64,000 nt of DNA. It comes from Dryococelus australis. Its lineage: Eukaryota; Arthropoda; Insecta; Phasmatodea; Phasmatidae. Under the pieces are notes generated by a model that saw only the letters and a list, made by a program, of their open reading frames with translations, was not told where the DNA came from and made no database searches. This document shows, piece after piece, positions 4,254-64,000 of this stretch. The stretch spans positions 212,177,047 to 212,241,046 of the forward strand of contig CM056995.1 in NCBI GenBank assembly GCA_029891345.1, given 5' to 3'. The position numbers were made by a program, and so were the translations under genes. Positions within the stretch are counted from its first letter, which is position 1. Each line of letters opens with the position of its first letter.

Positions 4254-4709
4254 CTTTAGTCGTGTGCGTGAGAGGTCCTATCGTAGTGCTTAAGAGGAAT
4301 GGTGGCATTTAATTTACTATGCAGGCACATGGGGCCACAGCCAAGCCGAGCAGAGAATCAAATTTGAACGAATTATGTTTTATGATATATAAATTTACAG
4401 AACATACAGGTGAAAGTGTACCAGCAGAAAGTTTTAAAAACTATCCACGGTTTAAAAAATGCAACAATTGAAAGATTTTGTCTATTTTCAAAACTAAATC
4501 TGTTACAGAAATCCATTTTGATGTTTGTAAATACAGCAAAAAACGTATAACATTATTTACCAACACTGCCAGCTAACGTCAGACTTGTAGACAAATTTAA
4601 TTGGTTAAAAATAACGCATACGAATTCAATTGTGAATCAGTATTACACAAGGTTTTAGGTCATGCGAATTACCTATTGTTATGTTCTGTACTCGGTTCAT
4701 ATGGTTTTA

Positions 4710-4943
4710 GGTTGTTCACGGTAAAGTGAGCACTTTTTAAGTCCCTCCCAACAGGGATTAACGACTAAAGAATATATCTTATTGTGGCCTTAGGTGTTAA
4801 CTTTTGAGAGTGGTGAAATGTATACACTATGTTTATTGGTCACATTGCAATGTTTATATTAAAAATCAGCAGGGAGATAAAAATTGGGTGAAAGTAAAAA
4901 TTTTAATGGGGCTTAAAAATTGCTCACTTTAATGTGAACAGCC
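4710..4943 (+). mobile_element. TA-flanked MITE, subfamily I
   Basis: A 234-bp element with TIRs of the form GGCTGTTCAC...GTGAACAGCC, flanked by TA on both sides (4708-4709 and 4944-4945). TA duplications and this size fit a Tc1/mariner-type MITE. The interior carries the subfamily I words CTTAG-ACGTTAACTT and GTGTTTATT. The left end is slightly mutated to GGTTGTTCAC. It is used here as the orientation reference for subfamily I. Confidence 0.7.
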
Positions 4944-4948
4944 TATAC

Positions 4949-5460
4949 GTGTCGGTGGTCCACCCCGCGCGAGTGGGCGAAGAGGAGGACAGAGAGTCGT
5001 TATATGATAGCAGCGGCAGCGCGAGCGATGACCAGTTGGCCGCGTATATATCAGTTACAAAAAGCGAGCCGACACGATAATCTCTCATGTGACGCACGCT
5101 GTCGACCCTGGTGGTATTGATTTCTGTGCATATTTGAAGAATGCTCTTGATTACTGACCTCGTTCTCTCAGCGTGACTTAGGGTACGTCAAATCTTCCAG
5201 ACGGTCAGGGCAATACTATAAATATCGCGCCAGGCCTCCAGGCTGGGAGTTTAGTTGAGTTATGTTTGTGTTGATGAGTGAATGAGTAGGTGAGTTCCGA
5301 GCGATAGAAGAACGAGCGGCGAGAGAAGTGACCGGCGGAAGGGAAGTTTACGACTGCGAGTATCGAGCAGTGAAGGACACGGCTGACAGGCTGGACTATT
5401 GGACTTGATGCTTGAGTGAAATGCATTATATACGATGGCAATACATAGACTGAACACGTG
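4949..5460 (+). mobile_element. possible solo LTR or promoter block
   Basis: A GC-richer block with purine-rich CGAGAG/GCGAGCG runs, a TATA box (TATAAATA, 5217-5224) and an initiator-like TTAGTTG about 30 bases further on. That is the arrangement of an LTR U3-R region or of a polymerase II promoter. The word ACGTG occurs just before the start and again just after 5455, but the ends do not read TG...CA, so boundaries are unsure. No exon or splice donor can be tied to it, which makes an LTR relic somewhat more likely than a host promoter. Confidence 0.3.
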
Positions 5461-6880: not shown

Positions 6881-8310
6881 ATTCACGGCATCTTCGGCCT
6901 TTTCTGAAGCCCTGCTTAAGTTTTACTTCCAGGATATTCCTTAACTAAGTATGGATGGTTGCACCAGAGGGACAACGCACCGGATTCGTGCGCACTCTGT
7001 TGTAACAGTATTTGGTATAAGAACTATTTCTTACTAGGCGCTACCAACACACATATTTTCCTCCTGTTTTTATTAAAATTATTTGTATATGAAGCAATAT
7101 AATTTATAGATAAAATATGAATGACGTTTCAATTTAACAGAAAAAAAATTAACTTTTATGTCAACACAAGTATAAAAATCTTGTGATACATTGCATATGT
7201 TGGAAACATCAAGCACGTAATACATGGGGAGATTTTTCAAAGGTTTGATTTTAAAAAGCCGAATAAACTGCGAATAGACTATAGATGTTTCCTGCTCTTG
7301 AGAGAAATCTGTACAGGCTATTCACAGTAAAATGAGCACTTTTGAAAGCCCTGCTCGATATCTATTTGTATGCACATCGTGTATTCTTCCGCCATATATA
7401 AGATAAACATTGTCATGGGTGTCATCACTTTATTCATGCGTTGATCAAGTGAAACTGTAAAATTATTATAAAAGTAAATATTTAACAACTGTGGTCATTA
7501 TTACATTTCGATACATAAAAAAAATAAACACAAGGGGAAATAAATAATTTGAGTTGTCACAAAAGGTTACCTGACACTTTTTATTCGGCGTTAAGATATG
7601 GAACTACTTCCCATCCATGGTTAGGCTACCAACTCTACTGGACTCAAGCCACTGAGGGCGGCCGTTAAAATATATGCAGGTAGGGGCAGTGAATTTTTTC
7701 TAAGGTTGATTTCAAAAGTGCTCACTTTATCGTGAACAGCTTTTACAAAGAAAACCTAAAAATTAACCCTAGATCACTTCTGTCCAAAGTGACCATTATC
7801 ACCGACGCTTCCAAATCTGACATACAAATTCTCGGGTGGCTTCATTCGTTGCAAATTATACCTGTAACTGTAGCATATTATGCCATGCGATGAAAAATTG
7901 AGAATTAAACTATAGTCTACTCGCTGTTTCTTCACGCATTTTAAATCAAAACATTAAAAAAAAATCCATGTAATAAGTTTTTGGTTGTTTCCTAAATATG
8001 TCATAAAGCGATTTGTACTTGGATAAACATAAAAGCAAATTATGTTTGGTTAAAGTGAACTTTTCCTTATATTCCGTCATAAAATATAATATTTCATTTA
8101 TAACTATAATTAATAAAGACAGAGAGAAAATACATATGTTGGTAATGCCTAGGAAGAAAAATTTCTTATGCAACATATTTCCCTGGGTGCGCACGAATGT
8201 GGTACGTCGGTTCTCTGGTGCAGTTTTCTAAAAATTCTCTGTACTACAGAAGGAGGAATATCCTAGAAGTGGAACTTTAGCAGGGCTTCAGAAAAGTTAT
8301 AAGAAACCGT
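6880..8310. mobile_element. palindromic (foldback-like) element
   Basis: Two arms of roughly 415-430 bp (about 6895-7312 and 7880-8308) are inverted copies of each other, diverged but collinear. Shared words in order, read outward to inward: TTTTCTGAAGCCCTGC, CTTC-AGGATATTCC, TTCGTGCGCAC, ACTAGGC-like, CCAACA-A-ATTTTC, CTTTTATGT, TACATGG and TAGACTATAG. The spacer is almost entirely one TA-flanked MITE (7316-7741). There is no coding capacity. Partial copies of one arm lie near 34420-34610 and 2380-2440, so it is a repeat family. Long arms with no ORF resemble foldback or Mutator-like non-autonomous elements, but no target duplication was found. Confidence 0.6.
7316..7741 (+). mobile_element. 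TA-flanked MITE, subfamily II
   Basis: About 426 bp with ends GGCTATTCAC and GTGAACAGC. The TIRs are those of subfamily I but the interior differs, with TGCACATCGTGTATT near the left and TATATGCAGGTAGGGGCAG near the right. The flanking TA is no longer clean on the right (TTTTA). It sits at the centre of the palindromic element. Orientation reference for subfamily II. Confidence 0.65.
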
Positions 8311-12109: not shown

Positions 12110-12520
12110 CTATTAAAAAAAGATCACTTTTGAAAGCAATACTTGAGAGCTACTTGTATGCACTTCGTGTATTTTCCCGCGTTATATAAAATTAACATTG
12201 TCATGGGCCTCAACATTTCATCCATGCGTCGGTCAGGTGAAACTGTGAAATTATTGAAAAGCCAATATGTTACAAATCTGGTCAATTTTACACCTAGATG
12301 CATTAAAAAACAGAAAGCTAAAGAAATTATTTAAGTTATCACAAATGGTTACCTCACGCTTTTTATTCGACGTTAAAATATTGAATTATTTTCCATTCAT
12401 AATTACCATCTTTACTGGGCGCATCTCACTCAGTGCGCCCATTAAAATATATGCAGGTAGGGGCAGTGACTTTTTTCTAAGGTTGATTTAACCAGTGCCC
12501 ACACTATCTTGAACAATCTT
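12110..12520 (+). mobile_element. TA-flanked MITE, subfamily II, decayed ends
   Basis: The interior matches the 7316 copy well: CACTTTTGAAAGC, CTTCGTGTATT, TATATGCAGGTAGGGGCAG. Both TIRs are eroded (CTATT-AAAAAAAGATCAC on the left, CTTGAACAATC on the right), so the TA flanks cannot be read with confidence. This is an older copy. Confidence 0.6.
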
Positions 12521-14206
12521 TAACAATAAAATGAGAAATGTATCACAAAGAAAATTTAATTTGTACTGTTTACTATAAAAGTATACCAAACGTTCGTAGT
12601 CATCGAAGCTCTAAAGCACTGATAGTTAAAAGAGAGTCGCTAAAAGGTTCGTTTCGTTTCTGGTATCCACATTAATCACAAACATCGTAAAATATTACAA
12701 CATAAAAGTTTGGAATCAAAGTTAGTTTTTTTTTTTTTTATTTATTAAAAATAAGATTTTTACCCAGACTAGGAAGAAATTGAAAACGTTTAGTATTAAC
12801 ACTGCTAAGCAAAACAGGTACAATGCCACTACCATAGTTTTTTCTAACCAACTCCATGTGATCTCTAGTGAGTTACTTCGACTTCACCTCAGTATCGGAA
12901 GGTTCCGGGTTTGAATCCTTGATAAACCATGGCTTTGTGTGCCATTTTCAGAAGTAATATAAGCCTACGTGTCATGTAAGTCGCTTACCAGTTAGCCGGA
13001 ATGATATTATTAGAGAAACTCGGATATTGTGTGAGTTCATTTGACGGTTAGTCTAAACTTGACAGATGTGTATACTTCCCAGCCACTACAATTTGTTCAT
13101 TAGAGTATTTTGACGTGAATACGTCTTAAAATTTTTAATAATAGTGGGAGGCAATTCAGAAAATCCGATGATAACAAAATCGGGGGATACAGTTTGGCAT
13201 TGCAGCTCCGAATATATCGTCTACATTCAAAATTCAGTTACACCATTCGATTGCCAAAGGATCAAATAATATGTTACGTTGAGTGAGGACTGCGAAGCAT
13301 CTCTCAAGGGGGTGAAAAGGGGGGGAGGGGGTGGGGCAATTTTGAGTTCGTTTCGCCGCGTCTTGTAATTTCCGCGTTGTATAACATTTGACTAGGATAA
13401 GCTACGACGCTAGTTTAAGTTTTAATAGACAGCTCTCATCAAAATCAATCGATTAAGTTTATAAAAACATTTGTATAGCGTAGTTATGGCAAAATTGTAT
13501 GCGTTTAATGTAAAAAATAATTAAAACTTTACACAATTTCGGCCTAGAGGCCTACTCGTCAAAAAGCCAAGTCGAAATACAGAAGTTGGAAAGAGCACCT
13601 CAAAAGCTATCCAGTGATACCCATAAAACTCCATATGATTGAGTGAAGCGGTTCCGGGAACGTAAAATAAATATCAAGGCGTCCGAGCGGGTCAACGTAC
13701 ACGTATTCACGCTAAACAAACGACCGTGTCCCCAACACAGCCAAACCCAATTATTTTTATACACGTGCATGACTGGTTCACAGCTCTACAGGACGTGTCA
13801 GGAAACGAGTGGCACAATCTCTAAAGTATAAGTGTGAAAAGACTAGACTAGCGCCACTCCAACTCTCAAAGTTCTGAGTATCTAGTAAAAATTTACGGAA
13901 CGTTTAAATATAGTCAAAATTTTACTGCTCCTGTGGTTTACATCCCTCGAGTGAACTACTCTGTAACTGGTAAACAACATTTTGTTCCTGTATCAAGGAT
14001 TTCGAAACTACGATGTTAATCTTATTGGCGCAACGTCGGTCTAACTACAAAAAAAGAAAATAAAAAATTGTAGATATATTTTTAGAGTAGGGGCCCAGCT
14101 CGTTACCTTTCTTTTTAGAATTGTCACGTGCCTAGAATAGTTACTATGTTACAAATTTTTACCGTACAAAAACTGGGAAAAAAAAAAAAAAAAAAAAAAA
14201 AGATGT
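12521..14206. other. anonymous intergenic DNA
   Basis: AT-rich with a poly-T run near 12730, a poly-G-rich stretch near 13320-13335 and a poly-A run just before 14200. A tRNA-B-box-like GGTTCCGGGTTTGAATCC near 12900 hints at a decayed SINE head, but no A box or body is clear. No gene is recognised. Confidence 0.45.
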
Positions 14207-14890
14207 GAAATTAACTCAACATTGGATATAGTTCTATCCACTAAGCCACTTCGGCCCCACTTGGAATCGCTCTATCCATTGAGCCAATGCGGTTACACTT
14301 GGAATCTCTTTATCCAATGAGCTACTAAGGCCCCATTTGATACATATATATCCACTTGGTCACTGTGGCCTCACTTGATATAGTTCTATCCACTAAGACA
14401 CTGCATGTCCCACTTTACATAGTTCTATCCACTGACCCACTAACGCCCCACTTGGAATCGCTCTACCCACTGAGACACTGCGACCCCACTTGGAATCTCT
14501 CTATCCACTGAGCTACTAAGACCCCATTTGATATGTATCTATCCACTTGGCCACTGTGGCCCCATTTGATATAGTTATATCCACTAAGCCACTGCATGCC
14601 CCACTTTACATAGTTCTATCCACTACCCACCAACGCCCCACTTGGAATCGCTCTACCCACTGAGACACTGCGACCCCACTTGGAATCTCTCTATCCACTG
14701 AGCTACTAAGACCCCATTTGATATATATCTATCCACTTGGCCACTGTGGCCCCATTTGATATAGTTCTATCCACTAAGCCACTGCGGCCCCATTTGGAAT
14801 AGCTCTATCCACTGGGACACTGCGGCTCCACTTGGAATTTCTCTATCCACTGAGCCACTAAGGCCCCACTTGGAAATTAACTCAACATTG
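14207..14890 (-). repeat. 38-bp minisatellite with A-box-like units and five-unit higher-order repeat
   Basis: About 17.5 tandem units of 38 bp. On the minus strand a unit reads like a tRNA 5' half: GCAGTGGCTCAGTGGATAGA, followed by GCGATTCCAAGTGG. TGGCTCAGTGG is an exact match to the eukaryotic A-box consensus (TGGCNNAGTGG). Units fall into five types that recur in fixed order every ~190 bp: the variant CACTTTACATAG starts at 14411 and again at 14602. The array is bordered by an 18-bp direct repeat, GAAATTAACTCAACATTG, at 14207-14224 and 14873-14890. The likely source is the head of a tRNA-derived SINE or a tRNA. No complete tRNA cloverleaf is present. Confidence 0.85.
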
Positions 14891-15190
14891 AAGCAAAACG
14901 TTTTAAGTAAACAAAAATTATATTCCTTTACCTTCATATCTCTACGAAATAATCTCTATGCATTAATACAAAACTTTTCATAGAAAAAAGTAATTAAAAA
15001 TGAGTTCTTAGGATAAAAGGTAACGAGTGCGTAATCCAACCTTTCTGAAATTCGAACTTGACCTGTATTTTACCCTGAGGATTCGCTCTGCAAAATTTGA
15101 AGAACTTCTGTTGAGGTTCAAGGTACTTAGAGGTATTAAAGATGGACGGACAGACAGACAGATATCGTCTCCTTATTATATAGTAGATAA
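14874..15190 (+). mobile_element. possible non-LTR retroelement 3' tail
   Basis: Downstream of the satellite the sequence ends in GACGGACAGACAGACAGATA, then CTTATTATATAGTAGATA. The GACAGACAGACA run followed by a TTAT-ATAGTAGAT end is typical of RTE-like LINE 3' ends in insects and of the SINEs that borrow them. There is no reverse transcriptase reading frame. The start is unknown; the satellite may lie inside the same element. Confidence 0.3.
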
Positions 15191-15627: not shown

Positions 15628-15863
15628 GGACATTTACAGTAAAGCAATCATTTTTGAAAGCCCTCTCATTTGGAATAACTTGTCAATAAATATTTTTAAT
15701 TGTAGTCTTAGACGTTAACTTCCGAGCGTGCTGGAATAAACACAATGTGTTTATTACTTACATTGCAATATTTATTTTAAAAAGGCAGTAAAAAGGATAA
15801 AAAAAAGGCTGAAAGTAAAAAGTAACTAGTGCATCAAAAGTGCTTACTTTATTGGGAACAGCC
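15628..15863 (+). mobile_element. TA-flanked MITE, subfamily I
   Basis: A 236-bp copy with TA at both flanks (15626-15627 and 15864-15865). The right end GGGAACAGCC is well kept, the left end is mutated (GGACATTTACAG). Interior words GTAGTCTTAGACGTTAACTT and TGTTTATTACTTACATTGC match the other subfamily I copies. Confidence 0.7.
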
Positions 15864-15869
15864 TATAAT

Positions 15870-27440: not shown

Positions 27441-28783
27441 AACTTTTAATATTTACTTGTATAAGCAAAAATACGTTATATACAGGAGTTTACCAAACCC
27501 CAGATACAACTTATATGGTAGCATTGCATCACGATTTATCAACACAAAGTCATCTACGATTGTGTAAAACAAATTCGGCATAGAGGTGAAGTAAAGGTAA
27601 CATAGCTGCAATGTGAATCGGCCTTAGACTTGAGACGACACCCTAAAGTAAAACGTTACCTATAAAATCAATCTTCTCTCGTGTACGCCTTCATAATTCC
27701 CTTGCCTGTGGCTTCAAAACACGGAAAATACCTTCAGGTAGACAGGCGCCTTAATGATCTATATCGTGAGAATATTGCGTGCAGTCTCATACTTTTTGCT
27801 GGTGCAAATAATGCCTTAACGATTAGAGCCACCGGGGATTCGGAAAGTACGTATTGTGTGGCAGTTTTTTGTACGTAACACCATTCACAATCTTGCTACT
27901 TTTTTGCGAGGTCTGTGCTGTTGACATGTGAGAGTGTGATGCGGCAGGCAGAAGGCTGTCGAAGATAAGGCGGAGGCAGCGTGTGTTGTGATCTGTTTTC
28001 AATTACCGGTGCTGCGTGAGCCGAGCATCTGTCTGCAAGTACGATCTCCCATTTTCCTGCGTGGTCGATACACGGAGGCGTCAAGCAGCGTGAAGATTGA
28101 TCAAATCTTGAATCTTGTCGCAGTGTGGTGCAGTACTTGATGGTGCGACTGAACTGGTAATGGAAAGGGAGGTAATACGGTTTTCGATACTGAAAACCGG
28201 CTATATTTATATAGTGTATGTATTTTTTAGTATATATATTTAAAAAAAAATTTTTATTTTTTATTTTTGCGATTTTTTGGTTCAAGGTCAAAGGTCATTG
28301 GAGTTAAGGTAAAAGGTCAAAGTTAAAGTCACCGACATCGTATATGGCTAAAAAGATGGCTGACAGAACCAAGCTGACTGATGGTCAGGTCTGACTCCGA
28401 ACCCTTGACCCTCTGTAACGATTTGGCATACCCTACGCCTATAAACCAATATGGTCGCCACTGCTCTGACCTCGAGAAGCAAGCCTCCTAAATACTTCCG
28501 ATGGATCGAAAATTGCCTTTCTGCGGCTCTTTTTTTTTTTTTGCAAGTGGGTGGCTCGGTGCTTTTCTGATGGAAAGACGGGGAATTTTAAGTTGAAAAA
28601 GGGAAATTTAATGAAATAAGGGAAATTGTGAGGGAAAATAGTAGATTTTGAGAGGAAAAAGGAAATTTTTAGGGGGAAATGGCCGCCGGAGGACCGGAAT
28701 GACAAAGCATGAACAGCTCCGTGCCCCCCCCCCCCCCCGCCCTTGGTGACAACTCACCATATTCTTTCTACTTAGATTATATG
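27441..28783. other. anonymous intergenic DNA with AGGTCA repeats
   Basis: No gene is recognised. Near 28285-28297 two AGGTCA words are separated by one base, with a further AGGTCA near 28314. This is the DR1 layout bound by nuclear receptors, but it may be chance. A poly-C run of about 14 lies near 28724. A chance ORF of 131 codons (27896-28291, minus) has no domain. Confidence 0.4.
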
Positions 28784-29021
28784 GGCTGTTCACTCTAAAA
28801 TGAACCCTTTTGAGGCCCAAGTTACTTTTTTATTTCAACCATATTTTATCACTTAACTACCTTTTTTTTTAAATTAATACTGCGATGTAAGTAATAAACA
28901 CAGTGTGTAGGTTACACAGCACTCGGAAGTTAACTTCTAAAGCTAACATTTAAAACATATTTATTGACTATTATTCCAAATGAGGGGACTTTCGAAAGTG
29001 CTCACTTAATCGTGAATAGCC
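28784..29021 (-). mobile_element. TA-flanked MITE, subfamily I
   Basis: About 238 bp with ends GGGCTGTTCAC and GTGAATAGCC, followed by TA (29022-29023). The interior is the reverse complement of the 4710 copy, with GTAATAAACACAGTGTG and GGAAGTTAACTTCTAAAGC. Confidence 0.7.
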
Positions 29022-29029
29022 TATACAAA

Positions 29030-40490: not shown

Positions 40491-40868
40491 GTGACTACCC
40501 GTAAATAATACCTGCGACTAACTGTGATTAGCCGTGACTACCTGCGGCTACCCGTGACTACTTTCGACTACCTACGACTACCTGTGACTACCTGCGACAA
40601 CTTGCGACTACCTACTACTATCTGAGACTAATTGCGACTACATGTGACCACTTGCGACAACTTGCGACAACTTGCGATTACCTGCGACTTCTTACGACAA
40701 CCTGAGACTACCCATCACTACATACGACTACCTGCGAAAACCTGTGACTACCCGCGTTTAACCTGCGACTACTTGCGACAACCCGTGACTACTTGCGACT
40801 ACAACGACTAACTGCGACTAATTGCGATTACATGTGACCACATGCGACAACTTGCGACTACCTGTGAC
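40491..40868 (+). repeat. 10-bp minisatellite
   Basis: About 37 units of the type CTACCTGCGA, with variants CTACCCGTGA, CAACTTGCGA and CTACTTGCGA. It lies within the RTE-like element, between its 5' motif and its 3' module. Unit length is steady with only occasional one-base changes. Confidence 0.85.
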
Positions 40869-44416: not shown

Positions 44417-45103
44417 GTATATTGGTATATGCAGTGCATGCAGTTTCAAATATATGATAATGTATTTTCTGTTTGTCATAGTGTGAAAGCAATTCTGATT
44501 TGCAGGATTTGTGGTATACGGTACAAATACTGAATTTCATTAGACATAAACAATAAAAGGGAAGCATTCTGTGTGCACTCTCTGCCAGAACATTGTCACT
44601 TCATACCAACTTTAGAAAAGCCGATTTACTGTTTAAAAAGTGCGGGAATATCTCTATACAATACACCACCATAATGTTTCTGAGATCACAGCATTAGTTT
44701 ATTTAAATAACGGAGAATTCTTATACTAGATAACAAATACAAATAACAGTAAGGAGCAAATAATAATAATCATTTGCTCTACGTATAAGAGTTTCTGCTG
44801 TACGTTCTTGCCAATACCTAGTCATTTTCTTTCGTAAACAAGCTAGAGAAACCACATATAAGGTGCCATTTTGTAGAGCACGAACGTAATCTGAAACCAA
44901 TATTAGCTTACAGTTTTTCGACTAAGTTGATTTTGAGCAGTGGACACTAGAAAGCGAGCTGGCAACCAGAACTGGCAACACTGTTCGAAGACATCACGAG
45001 TACAGTCCCTGTAGTTCCGTTGCGTCGTGCACAGCGCAGCAGTAAACAGAGCTATCTTTACGGCAAACGATATGAAAGCCGCGACTATATCGTTAATGGC
45101 GTA
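44417..45103. other. anonymous AT-rich intergenic DNA
   Basis: No gene or repeat recognised. Confidence 0.5.
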
Positions 45104-45334
45104 GACTGTTCACACTAAAGTGAACACTTTTTGAAGCCCTCTCATTCGGAATAATAGCCAATAATTATATTTTATTTTAGTATTAAACGTTAATTTCAGA
45201 GTACGATGGAAAATACACACGATGTTTACTATTTACATGGAAATTTTTACTTAAAAATGTGGGTAAGGAATAAAAAATGCTAAAAGAAAAAAGTAACTAG
45301 GGCCTCAAAAGTGCTCACTTTTCCGCGAACAGCC
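45104..45334 (+). mobile_element. TA-flanked MITE, subfamily I
   Basis: A 231-bp copy with ends GACTGTTCAC and GCGAACAGCC, flanked by TA on both sides (45102-45103 and 45335-45336). Interior words TAATAGCCAATAA, AACGTTAATTT and GTGCTCACTTTTCCG place it with the 4710 copy. Confidence 0.7.
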
Positions 45335-45339
45335 TATAA

Positions 45340-48300: not shown

Positions 48301-48834
48301 AAATTTTTTCGGCGATGTTCGCACATAATGTTAACATCTGCGACGTATGTTGCATTTGAATGATGATTAAGCCGATCACTCCCAAGTGTTTTAAGAATAA
48401 TTTCCTTTTAGCATTTGTTGACGCTTTATGTTTTATGTACCATGGTAATGTAGAAAAAGCGGAATACATGTTTTATGTACCATGGTAATAAATTACAGAA
48501 TAGGTTTTCGAACAGTCACCATTCCAGCACACTCTTCTTGAATTACATAAAAAGACTTAAATTGTTTTCATTTTTTGCTACAATTTTTTTTCGATTACAT
48601 GATCATTAATATACAATTACATACAGCGAACCACAAATTTACGAAATTAACAGACTATGACATCAAAATTGGATATACTACTAGTTGTTTATGGCAGTAA
48701 GAATGTATTTTTCTGTGATGAATGGCTTTATCTGTGGCTGAGGACACGGACGTGCATTCAAACAACGGTGATCCAGGTATGAATGTTGAGGAAATCATGA
48801 TGGCGTGTATACGTCTTTGTTATAACTAAGTATA
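45340..48834. other. anonymous AT-rich intergenic DNA (3.5 kb)
   Basis: The longest stretch without a recognised feature. It is AT-rich and its chance ORFs reach at most 71 codons. A short hairpin-capable ACACTCCC...GGGAGTGT lies near 45556-45580. The word ATGTTTTATGTACCATGGTA occurs twice near 48428 and 48468, about 40 bases apart. I see no gene, tRNA or repeat ends. Confidence 0.45.
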
Positions 48835-49061
48835 GGATATTCACGGTAAATTGAGCACTATTTGAAGCCCTCTCATTTGAAATAATAATCAATAAATATG
48901 TTTTGTTGTAGACTTAGACGTTAACTTTCTAGTCCGGTGAAATATATACATTGTGTTTATTACATGGCAATATTTATTTTAAAAATTGATGAAAAGAAAA
49001 AATTGATGATAGGATAAAAGTAACTAGGGCCTCAAAAGTGATTACTTTACCGTGAACAGCT
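48835..49061 (+). mobile_element. TA-flanked MITE, subfamily I
   Basis: A 227-bp copy with ends GGATATTCACGG and CCGTGAACAGCT and TA at both flanks (48833-48834 and 49062-49063). Interior GTAGACTTAGACGTTAACTT and TTGTGTTTATTACATGGC match subfamily I. Confidence 0.7.
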
Positions 49062-49089
49062 TATAATCCTACTGGAGATGCTCCCAGCA

Positions 49090-54684: not shown

Positions 54685-55098
54685 GGTTGTTCACGAAAAT
54701 GTGAGCACTTTTGAAATCAACCTTTGAGTCACTGCCCTTTACTTGCATATATTTTAACGGGCAAAATGAGTAACGTGTGTACAGTAAAGTTGGTAAGGAT
54801 GGAGGGAAAAGTAGTTCCATATATTAATGTCGAACAAAAAATGTTAGTTAACCATTTGTGATAACTTAAATTATTTCTCTCGCTTTTTGTATTTTTTATT
54901 GCATCGAAGTGTAAAAATGAGCAGATTTGTACAATATTTACTTTTCTAATAATTTCACAGTTTCACTTGGCCGACGCATAAATAAAGTGATGGGCCGATG
55001 GCAATGCAAATATTACACAAGGCTGAATAATACACTATGTTCATTCACGCAGATCTTAAGCAAGGTCTTCAAAAGTGCTAATTTTACCATGAACAGCC
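54685..55098 (-). mobile_element. TA-flanked MITE, subfamily II
   Basis: About 414 bp with ends CGGTTGTTCACG and CATGAACAGCC, followed by TA (55099-55100). Interior words ACTTGCATATATTTTAACGG and TTTCACTTGGCCGACGCA are the complement of the 7316 copy. Confidence 0.7.
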
Positions 55099-55104
55099 TA
55101 TAGA

Positions 55105-57783: not shown

Positions 57784-58662
57784 ATGCTAGGAAATTCCCC
57801 TTACCAACTTCTAGGACTTGTAGAGGGGACTGAGTAGACTATCCTTTGAATAGGAACCCATGTCCGGAAACGTACCGTTGCCGTGCTACAACCATTTCAA
57901 ATCAGGTGTACCACTCGTTCATTTCTGCTGAGGGAAAGAGCAATGTCTCGGATGTGCATGTGTTGGTATGCAACCGGGTAGGCAGTACATTACTTCAGAC
58001 AATCACCTGATAGTACGCGACGTCTACTCTGCCTCGAGCCCCATTCACGCGTATTTGTGTCTCCGATTAACATGGTTGAGTACACGTTTGCGGAATACAC
58101 AGACATTATCCTTGTGTATGGCACAGCTAAAGGCAATGGGAGAGCAGCTCGTCGGCTGTATCAAGAGCGTTATCCACAGCTTCCATTATCCACAGCTTGC
58201 GACACCATCGCATACCATTGTTGCCACAGTTACACAACGGCTCCGAGAACAAGGTACCTTCACCGCCGACAGGAAGGACTGTGGTGCTCCAAAGAGACGC
58301 TGCACTCCCGAATTGGAAGAGGTTGTACTTCATCACATTGAACAGAGCCCGTCAACGAGTACGCGATCAGTTGTGCGTGTATTGTGTGTTGCTCCCAGTA
58401 TAGCGTGGGAGGTTCTGCATGAGCAACAACTACATCCTTGCCACCTCCAAAGGGTACACATTCTTGGGGTCCAGCCGGTTTTGCACCACGTGTTGACTTC
58501 TGCACGTGGTTCCTGCACCGCTGCACCGACGAGAGCCGCTTTGATTTGAAATTGTTGTAGCAAGGTAACGGTACGTTTACGGACATGGGTTTCTGTTCAA
58601 AAGATCGTCTGCTCAGTCCCCTCTACAAGCCCTAGAAGTTTGTAAAGGGAATTTCTGAGCAT
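57784..58662 (+). mobile_element. non-autonomous transposon with 120-bp TIRs and DUF4817 transposase remnant
   Basis: An 879-bp element whose first and last 120 bases (57784-57903 and 58543-58662) are inverted copies. Shared words include AACTTCTAGG-CTTGTAGAGG, GGACTGAG-AGAC, ACCCATGTCCG-AAACGTACC and GCTACAAC-ATTTCAAA. Between them lies the N-terminal part of a transposase that runs directly into the right arm; the catalytic domain is deleted. The outermost words may be ATGCT on both sides. Target duplication is unclear (a TA lies at the left). Confidence 0.75.
58072..58553 (+). pseudogene. transposase N-terminal domain (DUF4817/HTH), broken
   Basis: The frame at 58072 encodes MVEYTFAEYTDIILVYGTA then KGNGRAARRLYQERYPQ, the DUF4817 helix-turn-helix found in many insect IS630/Tc1-mariner-related transposases and their fossils. 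A short duplication (CCACAGCTTCCATTAT with CCACAGCTT, near 58174-58198) shifts the frame. It resumes with VATVTQRLREQGTF, then ADRKDCGAPKRRCTPELEEV and a second helix-turn-helix-like stretch STSTRSVVRVLCVAPSIAWE. A second shift near 58465 leads to APRVDFCTWFLHRCTDE in another frame, after which the TIR begins. The DDE catalytic residues are absent. Confidence 0.78.
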
Positions 58663-61936: not shown

Positions 61937-62352
61937 GGCTGTTCACGGTAAAATTAGCATTTTTGAAAGTCCTGCTTAAGATTTAATTGTATACACGTTG
62001 AGTATTCCTCCGACTTATGTAAAATTAACTTTGCTTTGTTCCTCATCACTTTATTCATCCGCCCGTCAAATGAAACTGTGAAATTATTAAGAAGTAAATA
62101 CTTCACATAACTGCTCGTTTTTACACTTCGATTCATTAAAAAAATAAAAAGCGAAATAAATAATTTTAAGTTATCATAAATGGTTACCTAACACTTTTTA
62201 TTCGACGTTAAGATATGGGACTACTTTCCATCCATCGTTACCAACTTTACTAGGCGAATATCACTCAGTGCGCCCATTAAAACATATGACTGCAGCGGCA
62301 GTGACTTTTTTTAAAGGTTCAATTCTCAAGTGCTTACTTTATCGTGAATAGG
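61937..62352 (+). mobile_element. TA-flanked MITE, subfamily II
   Basis: About 416 bp with left end GGCTGTTCACGG preceded by TA (61935-61936) and right end CGTGAATAGGC. Interior TGTATACACGTTGAGTATTC, CCGTCAAATGAAACTGTGA and CAGCGGCAGTGACTTTT align with the 7316 and 12110 copies. The right flank is eroded. Confidence 0.7.
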
Positions 62353-62359
62353 CTTTAGC

Positions 62360-64000
62360 ACACATCGTCTACCGCTTGTAAGCTGACAAGCAGGGTAAGG
62401 GAATACACCACGGAGAATCATGCACGAATCTTTCAGTGAAGCAAAAATAGCATCCCGCCAGACACACTCCTACATAAATGTGGATCCGACCCCGAAACTT
62501 AAATTAATTGTTAATTTTTAATGCGTGTGTTTGTGGATGTGTGCACCAACGATTGGTAGTGTTGAATTGTGTATCCCTTCTTTTTGGAGGACCAAAACGG
62601 TTGAAGCTTCGCAATCTATAACACTATGTTACAAGAAAAATTCCTTACAGATGCCTAATTGGAGTATGCCAATAAAAGCATAAAAAACAAGAAAAGAACT
62701 TTCAAAAATAATTAAATTTATTTATTACATAATAACATTTGATTTAATTACATCCTTGTGTTACTCCAAATAAATTAATTGCTTCAGTTAGAACAATATG
62801 GAATTGAAAAACGTGGTGTCCTTGTATGATTCAGTTCGTTAGTTACGAAAAATAAATGTCGACAACATTCGAACCACCGATCTGTGTTAAATTAAATATT
62901 TTTGTTACCATACTTATTTTTCCATATAGCAAGCATGGATTCAATTCAGAAAACAAACTCTGAATTAGAACAATTTGCATTAAGTGACATTCTCTGTAGG
63001 TCTATACAGATATAAACATTTGTGTATGCATTGCGACATCCTACAGTACAAACACTCCGCAAGTCATGTACATATTCTGCTACATGCACTAATACTTGTT
63101 AATCTGAAATTCTTTGAATCACTTTCTATCCCCAAGTTCAGGGGGTGGTCCAACCCCCAACCCTCGCTGACAACAACTCATTCCATTCCCAATCGACATT
63201 CCCTCAGAAGAATTATTTACAGTGGAAAGGACACAGTGCGGACTCTGGCGGCATATCCATTAGGCAGACCCAGAAACATCCATAAAATATTAAAATCGGA
63301 GAAAAGATCATAAGACCTTGGCGACTGAAGAAGCGACGAACCTCATCTTCAGCTTCGTCGAAGACAAAGCCAATGTCTCGTGATTTCTTCTGCTATTATT
63401 AAATTTTCTAAAAAAATTGCGACTATTTTTTGTTTTAAGCAGTAGATGTCGTTCGAGATGGTGGTCAAAGGTCAACGTCAAGGTCGCATGACATCACAGT
63501 TCCCAGTATTGTTGCGAAAAGTATCATTTAACTGGTTATATATATATATTTTTATTTATTTATTTATTTATTTATTTAATGACAGTATAGGTTGGCTGGC
63601 TCAGTTGCTATTCAGATTGTGAAGAGTGAACATTTGCTGTGGAGAATTTACTCTTATTCGATTATGGAAATTAATCAGAAATGTTATTTGTGTTGATACT
63701 GCATGAAGATCTTTTCTACCATAAACTGTCCATAGCACAAAGCTGGTTGTTATCAGACTTTACTTTGTACTATGTTCACATGAGAAAAGTTTAAATCTCA
63801 GTTTTGATGTCGCAACAACTTGAAAATACATCTTGCATCATGTAAGGGTCGTCCTGCACTGCACATTAAGCGATATCTGTGGGCAGTACAAGATAAATGT
63901 GAGGTTTAACTACATATGTTTAGAGCAGATCTTTCCTCACACCAAGACAATCATACAAGTAATGTGACAATACGTTTACATATGTATACTACTCAAAGAG
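62360..64000. other. anonymous AT-rich intergenic DNA
   Basis: A 109-codon plus-strand ORF (62984-63313) has no recognisable domain. A GGTCAAAGGTCA word near 63463 resembles a DR1 half-site pair. A (TTTA)n microsatellite lies at 63545-63580. No gene or repeat end is recognised. Confidence 0.45.

Follow-up and report, generated by a model that had tools for sequence, protein, structure and literature searches.

The 38-bp tandem array described here, from contig CM056995.1 of the phasmid Dryococelus australis, is almost certainly the central minisatellite of a family of non-autonomous Helitrons in this species. The array is not free-standing; it is the middle of one Helitron copy of ~1.1 kb, which is non-coding, and the list of open reading frames (ORFs) for the window (the whole stretch of 64,000 nucleotides that was analyzed) contains none of at least 120 amino acids that overlaps the element. 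This assignment moves the feature from an odd RNA polymerase III (pol III) satellite to a well-understood class of transposon, and it accounts for how a ready-made five-unit higher-order repeat comes to sit at numerous unrelated sites across an insect genome of 3.4 Gb.

Organization and dispersal of the array

An earlier note on this DNA described a 38-bp tandem array at 14207–14890 in which five unit types recur in order every ~190 bp, and both observations are borne out. Tandem Repeats Finder (TRF), which the note had proposed as a check, recovers both periods, one of 38 bp at 14222–14875 (17.2 copies, 74% matches) and one of 190 bp (3.4 copies, 88%). The array was cut into 17 units, with all 16 spacings falling between 37 and 39 bp, and, starting at the element's 5' end, the unit types run A B D E A B C D E A B C D E A B D. 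Units five positions apart are 88.4% identical, those at lag 10 are 82.8% alike (7 pairs) and those at lag 14 are 87.7% alike (3 pairs), with the remaining lags at 68–78%. The lag-5/10 value was not matched in any of 20,000 random reorderings of the units, nor the best-lag value in any of 5,000. A tree of the 17 units, likewise proposed in the note, agrees in part: types C and E are grouped strongly and type A moderately, but 7 of the 12 inner branches have weak support. The span originally given takes in, besides the array, a perfect 18-bp direct repeat (18/18 bases) on both sides. The minus-strand fold of the array is strong (z of -5.0 versus 20 shuffles), which may be attributable to repeated, partly self-complementary units without function.

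A search for the repeat run across the D. australis genome (3,415,067,245 bases in 646 contigs), another of the checks suggested, places copies on 15 contigs among the matches listed, with at least 83 matches when 40 of 7,352 first-look candidates were scored. Forty loci, including the window copy, were fetched; they were picked by similarity of their arrays to that of the window and are not a random sample. The array is flanked by a 3' (left) arm in 37 of these 40 loci, by a 5' (right) arm in 38 and by both arms in 36; L023 lacks the right arm, L036 and L052 lack the left arm, and L035 lacks both. Across the 20 long loci, sequence common to the group extends no farther than about 200 bp leftward and 400 bp rightward of the array, and beyond these limits there are scattered matches, mostly among 1–4 loci (6 and 14 at two points that were sampled). 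Array spans among the 40 loci range from 498 to 2,224 bp, with the 1,723 bp of L017 representing two copies. An in-situ minisatellite at a unique site, also considered, is ruled out by the arms shared among copies. The parts of the window copy are listed in Table 1. In this copy and several others, an A run on the plus strand (14178–14201 here) replaces about 30 bp of the 3' arm.

Table 1. Parts of the Helitron copy in the window, from its 5' end to its 3' end.
Feature	Position	Strand	Basis and remarks
Whole element, decayed non-autonomous Helitron copy, 1,099 bp	14087..15185	-	Arms in other loci; end alignment
5' terminus	15162..15185	-	Consensus TCCTATATAATAAGTAGACGATCT after host A; decayed here
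5' arm, about 310 bp	14873..15185	-	91.9% identity to the family arm consensus
Internal direct repeat, 5'-arm side, GAAATTAACTCAACATTG on the plus strand	14873..14890	.	Motif borders other arrays too
Array, 17 units of 37–39 bp	14225..14872	-	TRF, unit cutting, typing
Internal direct repeat, 3'-arm side	14207..14224	.	Perfect 18-bp repeat; recurs in other copies
3' arm, 138 bp here versus about 155 bp in the consensus	14087..14224	-	72.9% identity
Place of the 3' hairpin, consensus CCCGTGAC...GTCACGGG	14096..14132	-	Decayed in the window copy
3' terminus, consensus CTAG then host T	14087..14090	-	Here CTAC then T

The history of the array can be followed through 904 full units from the 40 loci, aligned to a consensus derived from the window and thus biased towards it; the majority unit differs from the window consensus at one base. 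When units of the other loci are typed by the five types of the window, the order A, B, (C), D, E, A accounts for 298 of 602 typed neighbors at 39 other loci, against a shuffled mean of 22% and a maximum of 27.6%. In 25 of the 40 loci, lag 5 outranks every other lag from 1 to 8, and a different lag is best in the remaining 15. Because the five-type order recurs in other copies, the five-unit block predates the dispersal of these copies. The block-of-five structure behind the earlier claim of growth by copying five-unit blocks is supported. Local re-growth came later, as seen in the period of 4 in L033 and the near-uniform arrays of L043, L045 and L035. In the proposed mechanism, the Rep/helicase of an autonomous Helitron would act in trans to copy the element from its TC end to its CTAG end, and the copy would be pasted elsewhere with its ready-made array of divergent units riding as cargo. 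Between transpositions, slippage or unequal exchange would lengthen, shorten and re-homogenize the array, at first in blocks of about five units and later, locally, with other periods.

Three loci have unusual structures. At L017:4243-6387, two element copies lie head to tail with zero bases between them (GGA/CTA), as if one copy had inserted at the end of the other. At L035:1567-3845, an array of 57 38-mer units carries neither arm and has an assembly gap on its right; it starts some 110 bp behind TCCTTACTACTATATAAATGCG, a sequence resembling the 5' end of a different Helitron family, and this locus suggests that the 38-mer array is common to more than one Helitron family. At L052, which lacks the left arm, a tandem array of 25-bp units (427-1651, about 49 copies) directly adjoins the 38-mer array on that side.

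Helitron termini and insertion sites

Published Helitron marks are TC and CTRR ends, a 3' hairpin and insertion between A and T, as set out for insect Helitrons (PMC6544945). The family examined here is identified as a Helitron by its TC and CTAG ends, its insertion between A and T without duplication and the 3' stem of its consensus, all of which correspond to those marks. On the minus strand, a host A precedes TCCTATATAATA... at the 5' end, and the 3' consensus closes with ...CTGGGTCCCCTAG (...CCCCTAG) ahead of a host T. CTAG is present in 16 of the 17 listed copies aligned to the last base. Counting only ends that align through the final consensus base, the adjoining plus-strand host base is A at 17 of 18 left ends and T at 21 of 22 right ends, the lone C being the head-to-tail junction of L017. 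A cruder, ungapped placement yielded A at 9 of 14 left ends and T at 12 of 15 right ends, in part through misregistered ends. The 3' end of the consensus folds into a stem of -8.6 kcal/mol, matched by 5 of 200 shuffles, and the longest perfect 3' stem in single copies measures 3–8 bp (17 copies); the palindrome just inside the 3' end is present in the consensus and weak or lost in many single copies. The window copy has itself lost the exact end signatures and the hairpin: its 5' terminus reads TACTATATAATAAGGAGACGATAT and is preceded by C instead of A, while base 14086, which follows its 3' end, is A on the plus strand and thus reads as T in the orientation of the element. We take the 5' end of the family to be similar to that of bat Helitrons.

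Empty sites were sought by joining the host flanks of 24 copies. Two of these, L019 and L021, are usable, and both lie inside another repeat; two further joined copies matched nothing beyond their own locus. Paralogues of the L019 and L021 sites span the junction ungapped in five of six printed alignments and with a gap in the sixth, although these paralogues are just 70–79% identical and most lack the A–T pair themselves, and in L019 a T precedes the left end. Neither comparison reveals a target duplication. The repeat that hosts these two Helitron insertions belongs to a dispersed family, represented in the window by five or more copies (4699-4952, 15639-15867, 28780-29025, 45102-45338 and 48831-49065).

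Two other transposition routes were weighed against the Helitron assignment. One idea took the 18-bp repeat as a target-site duplication, which would make the feature a minisatellite retroposed by LINE machinery; the 18 identical bases at both edges of the window array are what such an event would leave. The same motif, however, borders arrays at unrelated places, and the arms outside it are also common to the copies, so the motif is internal to the family, the idea is refuted by the shared arms, and retroposition is practically out of the question. The duplication that LINE machinery leaves around tRNA-derived SINEs is correspondingly absent, and the repeat offers a clean case of a false target-site duplication exposed by comparing copies. 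A Helentron/HINE (DINE-1-like) element in place of a canonical Helitron would share the general plan of constant ends with central tandem repeats (PMC7492417, PMC4067079), yet it too is very unlikely. Sub-terminal inverted repeats are given as a mark of Helentrons (PMC4067079), and those published for mite HINEs measure 12–15 bp, whereas the consensus ends of this family share no exact inverted word of 7 bases or more. Its insertions fall between A and T and not within T-rich or TT sites, and it has a CTAG end. The canonical Helitron thus remains the preferred reading.

tRNA likeness of the repeat unit

The earlier note held that every unit contains an exact A box. This is too strong: the exact box TGGCTCAGTGG is found in 1 of 17 window units and 191 of 904 family units, and the degenerate form TRGYNNARNNG in 9 of 17 (array shuffles give a mean of 0.9 and a maximum of 6) and 556 of 904, while a shuffled consensus unit holds the degenerate box in 1,507 of 20,000 cases. 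Within the window array, GGATAGAG occurs five times and GATTCCAAG six times. The family consensus carries TGGCTCAGTGG together with a complementary GCTC/GAGC D stem, and an A box with a perfect 4-bp D stem is seen in 1 of 17 window units and in 26 of 20,000 consensus shuffles. A tRNA-like segment in the unit, also claimed, is supported. Compared with tRNA D-arms, the unit consensus reaches a best score of 28, which is equaled by 3 of 1,000 shuffles in a post hoc comparison on a small, mostly bacterial set (one human tRNA-Arg gene and 15 of the 20 E. coli tRNA genes in the stretches retrieved). On this comparison the unit outscores shuffled sequence, with an E. coli Arg tRNA as the top-scoring match, but the match spans about 20 of its 38 bases. 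Judged from these comparisons, the tRNA likeness is probably real but a fragment.

Whether this likeness reflects function or origin is a separate matter from the carrier. The suggestion that the array is a functional run of pol III A boxes, serving as a TFIIIC or pol III decoy or barrier, would fit the frequency of the degenerate box in the window and the family and the D-arm likeness of the consensus, which exceeds that of shuffles. On sequence grounds it nevertheless appears highly improbable, and the array is most likely without promoter function. In PMC11811891, TFIIIC is described as anchored by the B box, with the A box binding at low affinity; no B box was found in the array, and the B-box-like GTTCGAATT of the 5' arm consensus precedes the A boxes, which is the wrong order. 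The exact A box is confined to the minority of units given above, and conservation across the 904 units puts the A-box stretch 9th of 38. D-stem pairing in these units shows no covariation beyond column expectation, with observed and expected values of 0.53/0.54, 0.57/0.55, 0.81/0.81 and 0.76/0.75 at the four pairs, and the D stem is no better than shuffles in the window units.

That the 38-mer originated when a Helitron captured part of a tRNA or SINE head is compatible with the Helitron reading and is the most plausible of these alternatives, though still a doubtful one. Helitrons are known to capture host fragments (PMC12628747, a review), and the A box and complementary D stem of the family consensus, as well as its rarely equaled tRNA score, would be expected of a captured piece. 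Weighing against capture are the limited length of the likeness, the post hoc test on so small a tRNA set, and the shuffled consensus units that also combine an A box with a D stem. ARAGORN predicts 0 tRNAs in the window, the Rfam tRNA model has no match at 14100–15000 at E up to 10, and no SINE with this tRNA-like head was found at the window places examined; the A and B boxes in a tRNA-related head that characterize tRNA-derived SINEs are likewise not found together here. A bolder version, in which the 38-mer is a captured tRNA/SINE promoter module shared by distinct Helitron families, as L035 hints, with A-box cores useful to the transposon, is very improbable. If it were true, the A-box cores might load pol III factors or open DNA for rolling-circle copying.

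Related elements and other features of the window

The earlier note knew of no described satellite of this design, but satellite-like arrays inside non-autonomous Helitron or Helentron elements have been described in oysters (PMC7492417) and reviewed (PMC12628747). The present elements form a putatively new Helitron family of this known kind, with an internal satellite-like array. Cg_HINE of Crassostrea gigas is likewise a dispersed, non-autonomous rolling-circle element with constant flanks, a variable central array and no target duplication. It differs in its Helentron-type ends, sub-terminal inverted repeats and oligo-T targets, where the family in D. australis has TC...CTAG ends and inserts between A and T, and in its monomers, mostly of 140–180 bp rather than 38 bp (PMC7492417). 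DINE-1/HINE elements are also non-autonomous, with tandem repeats in some copies, but they are described as having sub-terminal inverted repeats and T-rich insertion sites (PMC4067079). The insect Hel1 Helitrons share the ends, the 3' hairpin and the insertion between A and T, and they include Daus_Hel1Aa of the same host, listed with 667 bp, 1,326 copies and an average divergence of 0.077. Daus_Hel1Aa may belong to the same family; the terms "tandem repeat" and "minisatellite" are absent from the main text that describes it (PMC6544945). Tandem repeats from the tRNA-related regions of SINEs are reported for Hydromantes Hy/Pol III and Xenopus Satellite 1 (PMC9659126), and reptile satellites have been tied to a part of a SINE (PMC10702118). 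These satellites come from SINEs, whereas the family described here has only a D-arm-like core and a Helitron as its carrier. Among the open-licence papers listed in our searches, none described a phasmid Helitron carrying a 38-bp array.

Elsewhere in the window, a Pfam scan of six ORFs found no family, protein searches with two ORFs gave no match, and a scan for viral-contig patterns found none. A four-copy dispersed repeat family lies in both orientations at 7329-7754, 12117-12531, 54740-55104 and 61950-62366, and a separate 10-bp minisatellite, TACCTGCGAC, occupies 40509-40868 (36 copies, 69%). The region at 57784-58662 looks like a short inverted-repeat transposon, with 121-bp inverted repeats (88%) around an ORF that has relatives in Periplaneta and Dryococelus, including a DUF4817 protein, in a protein search.
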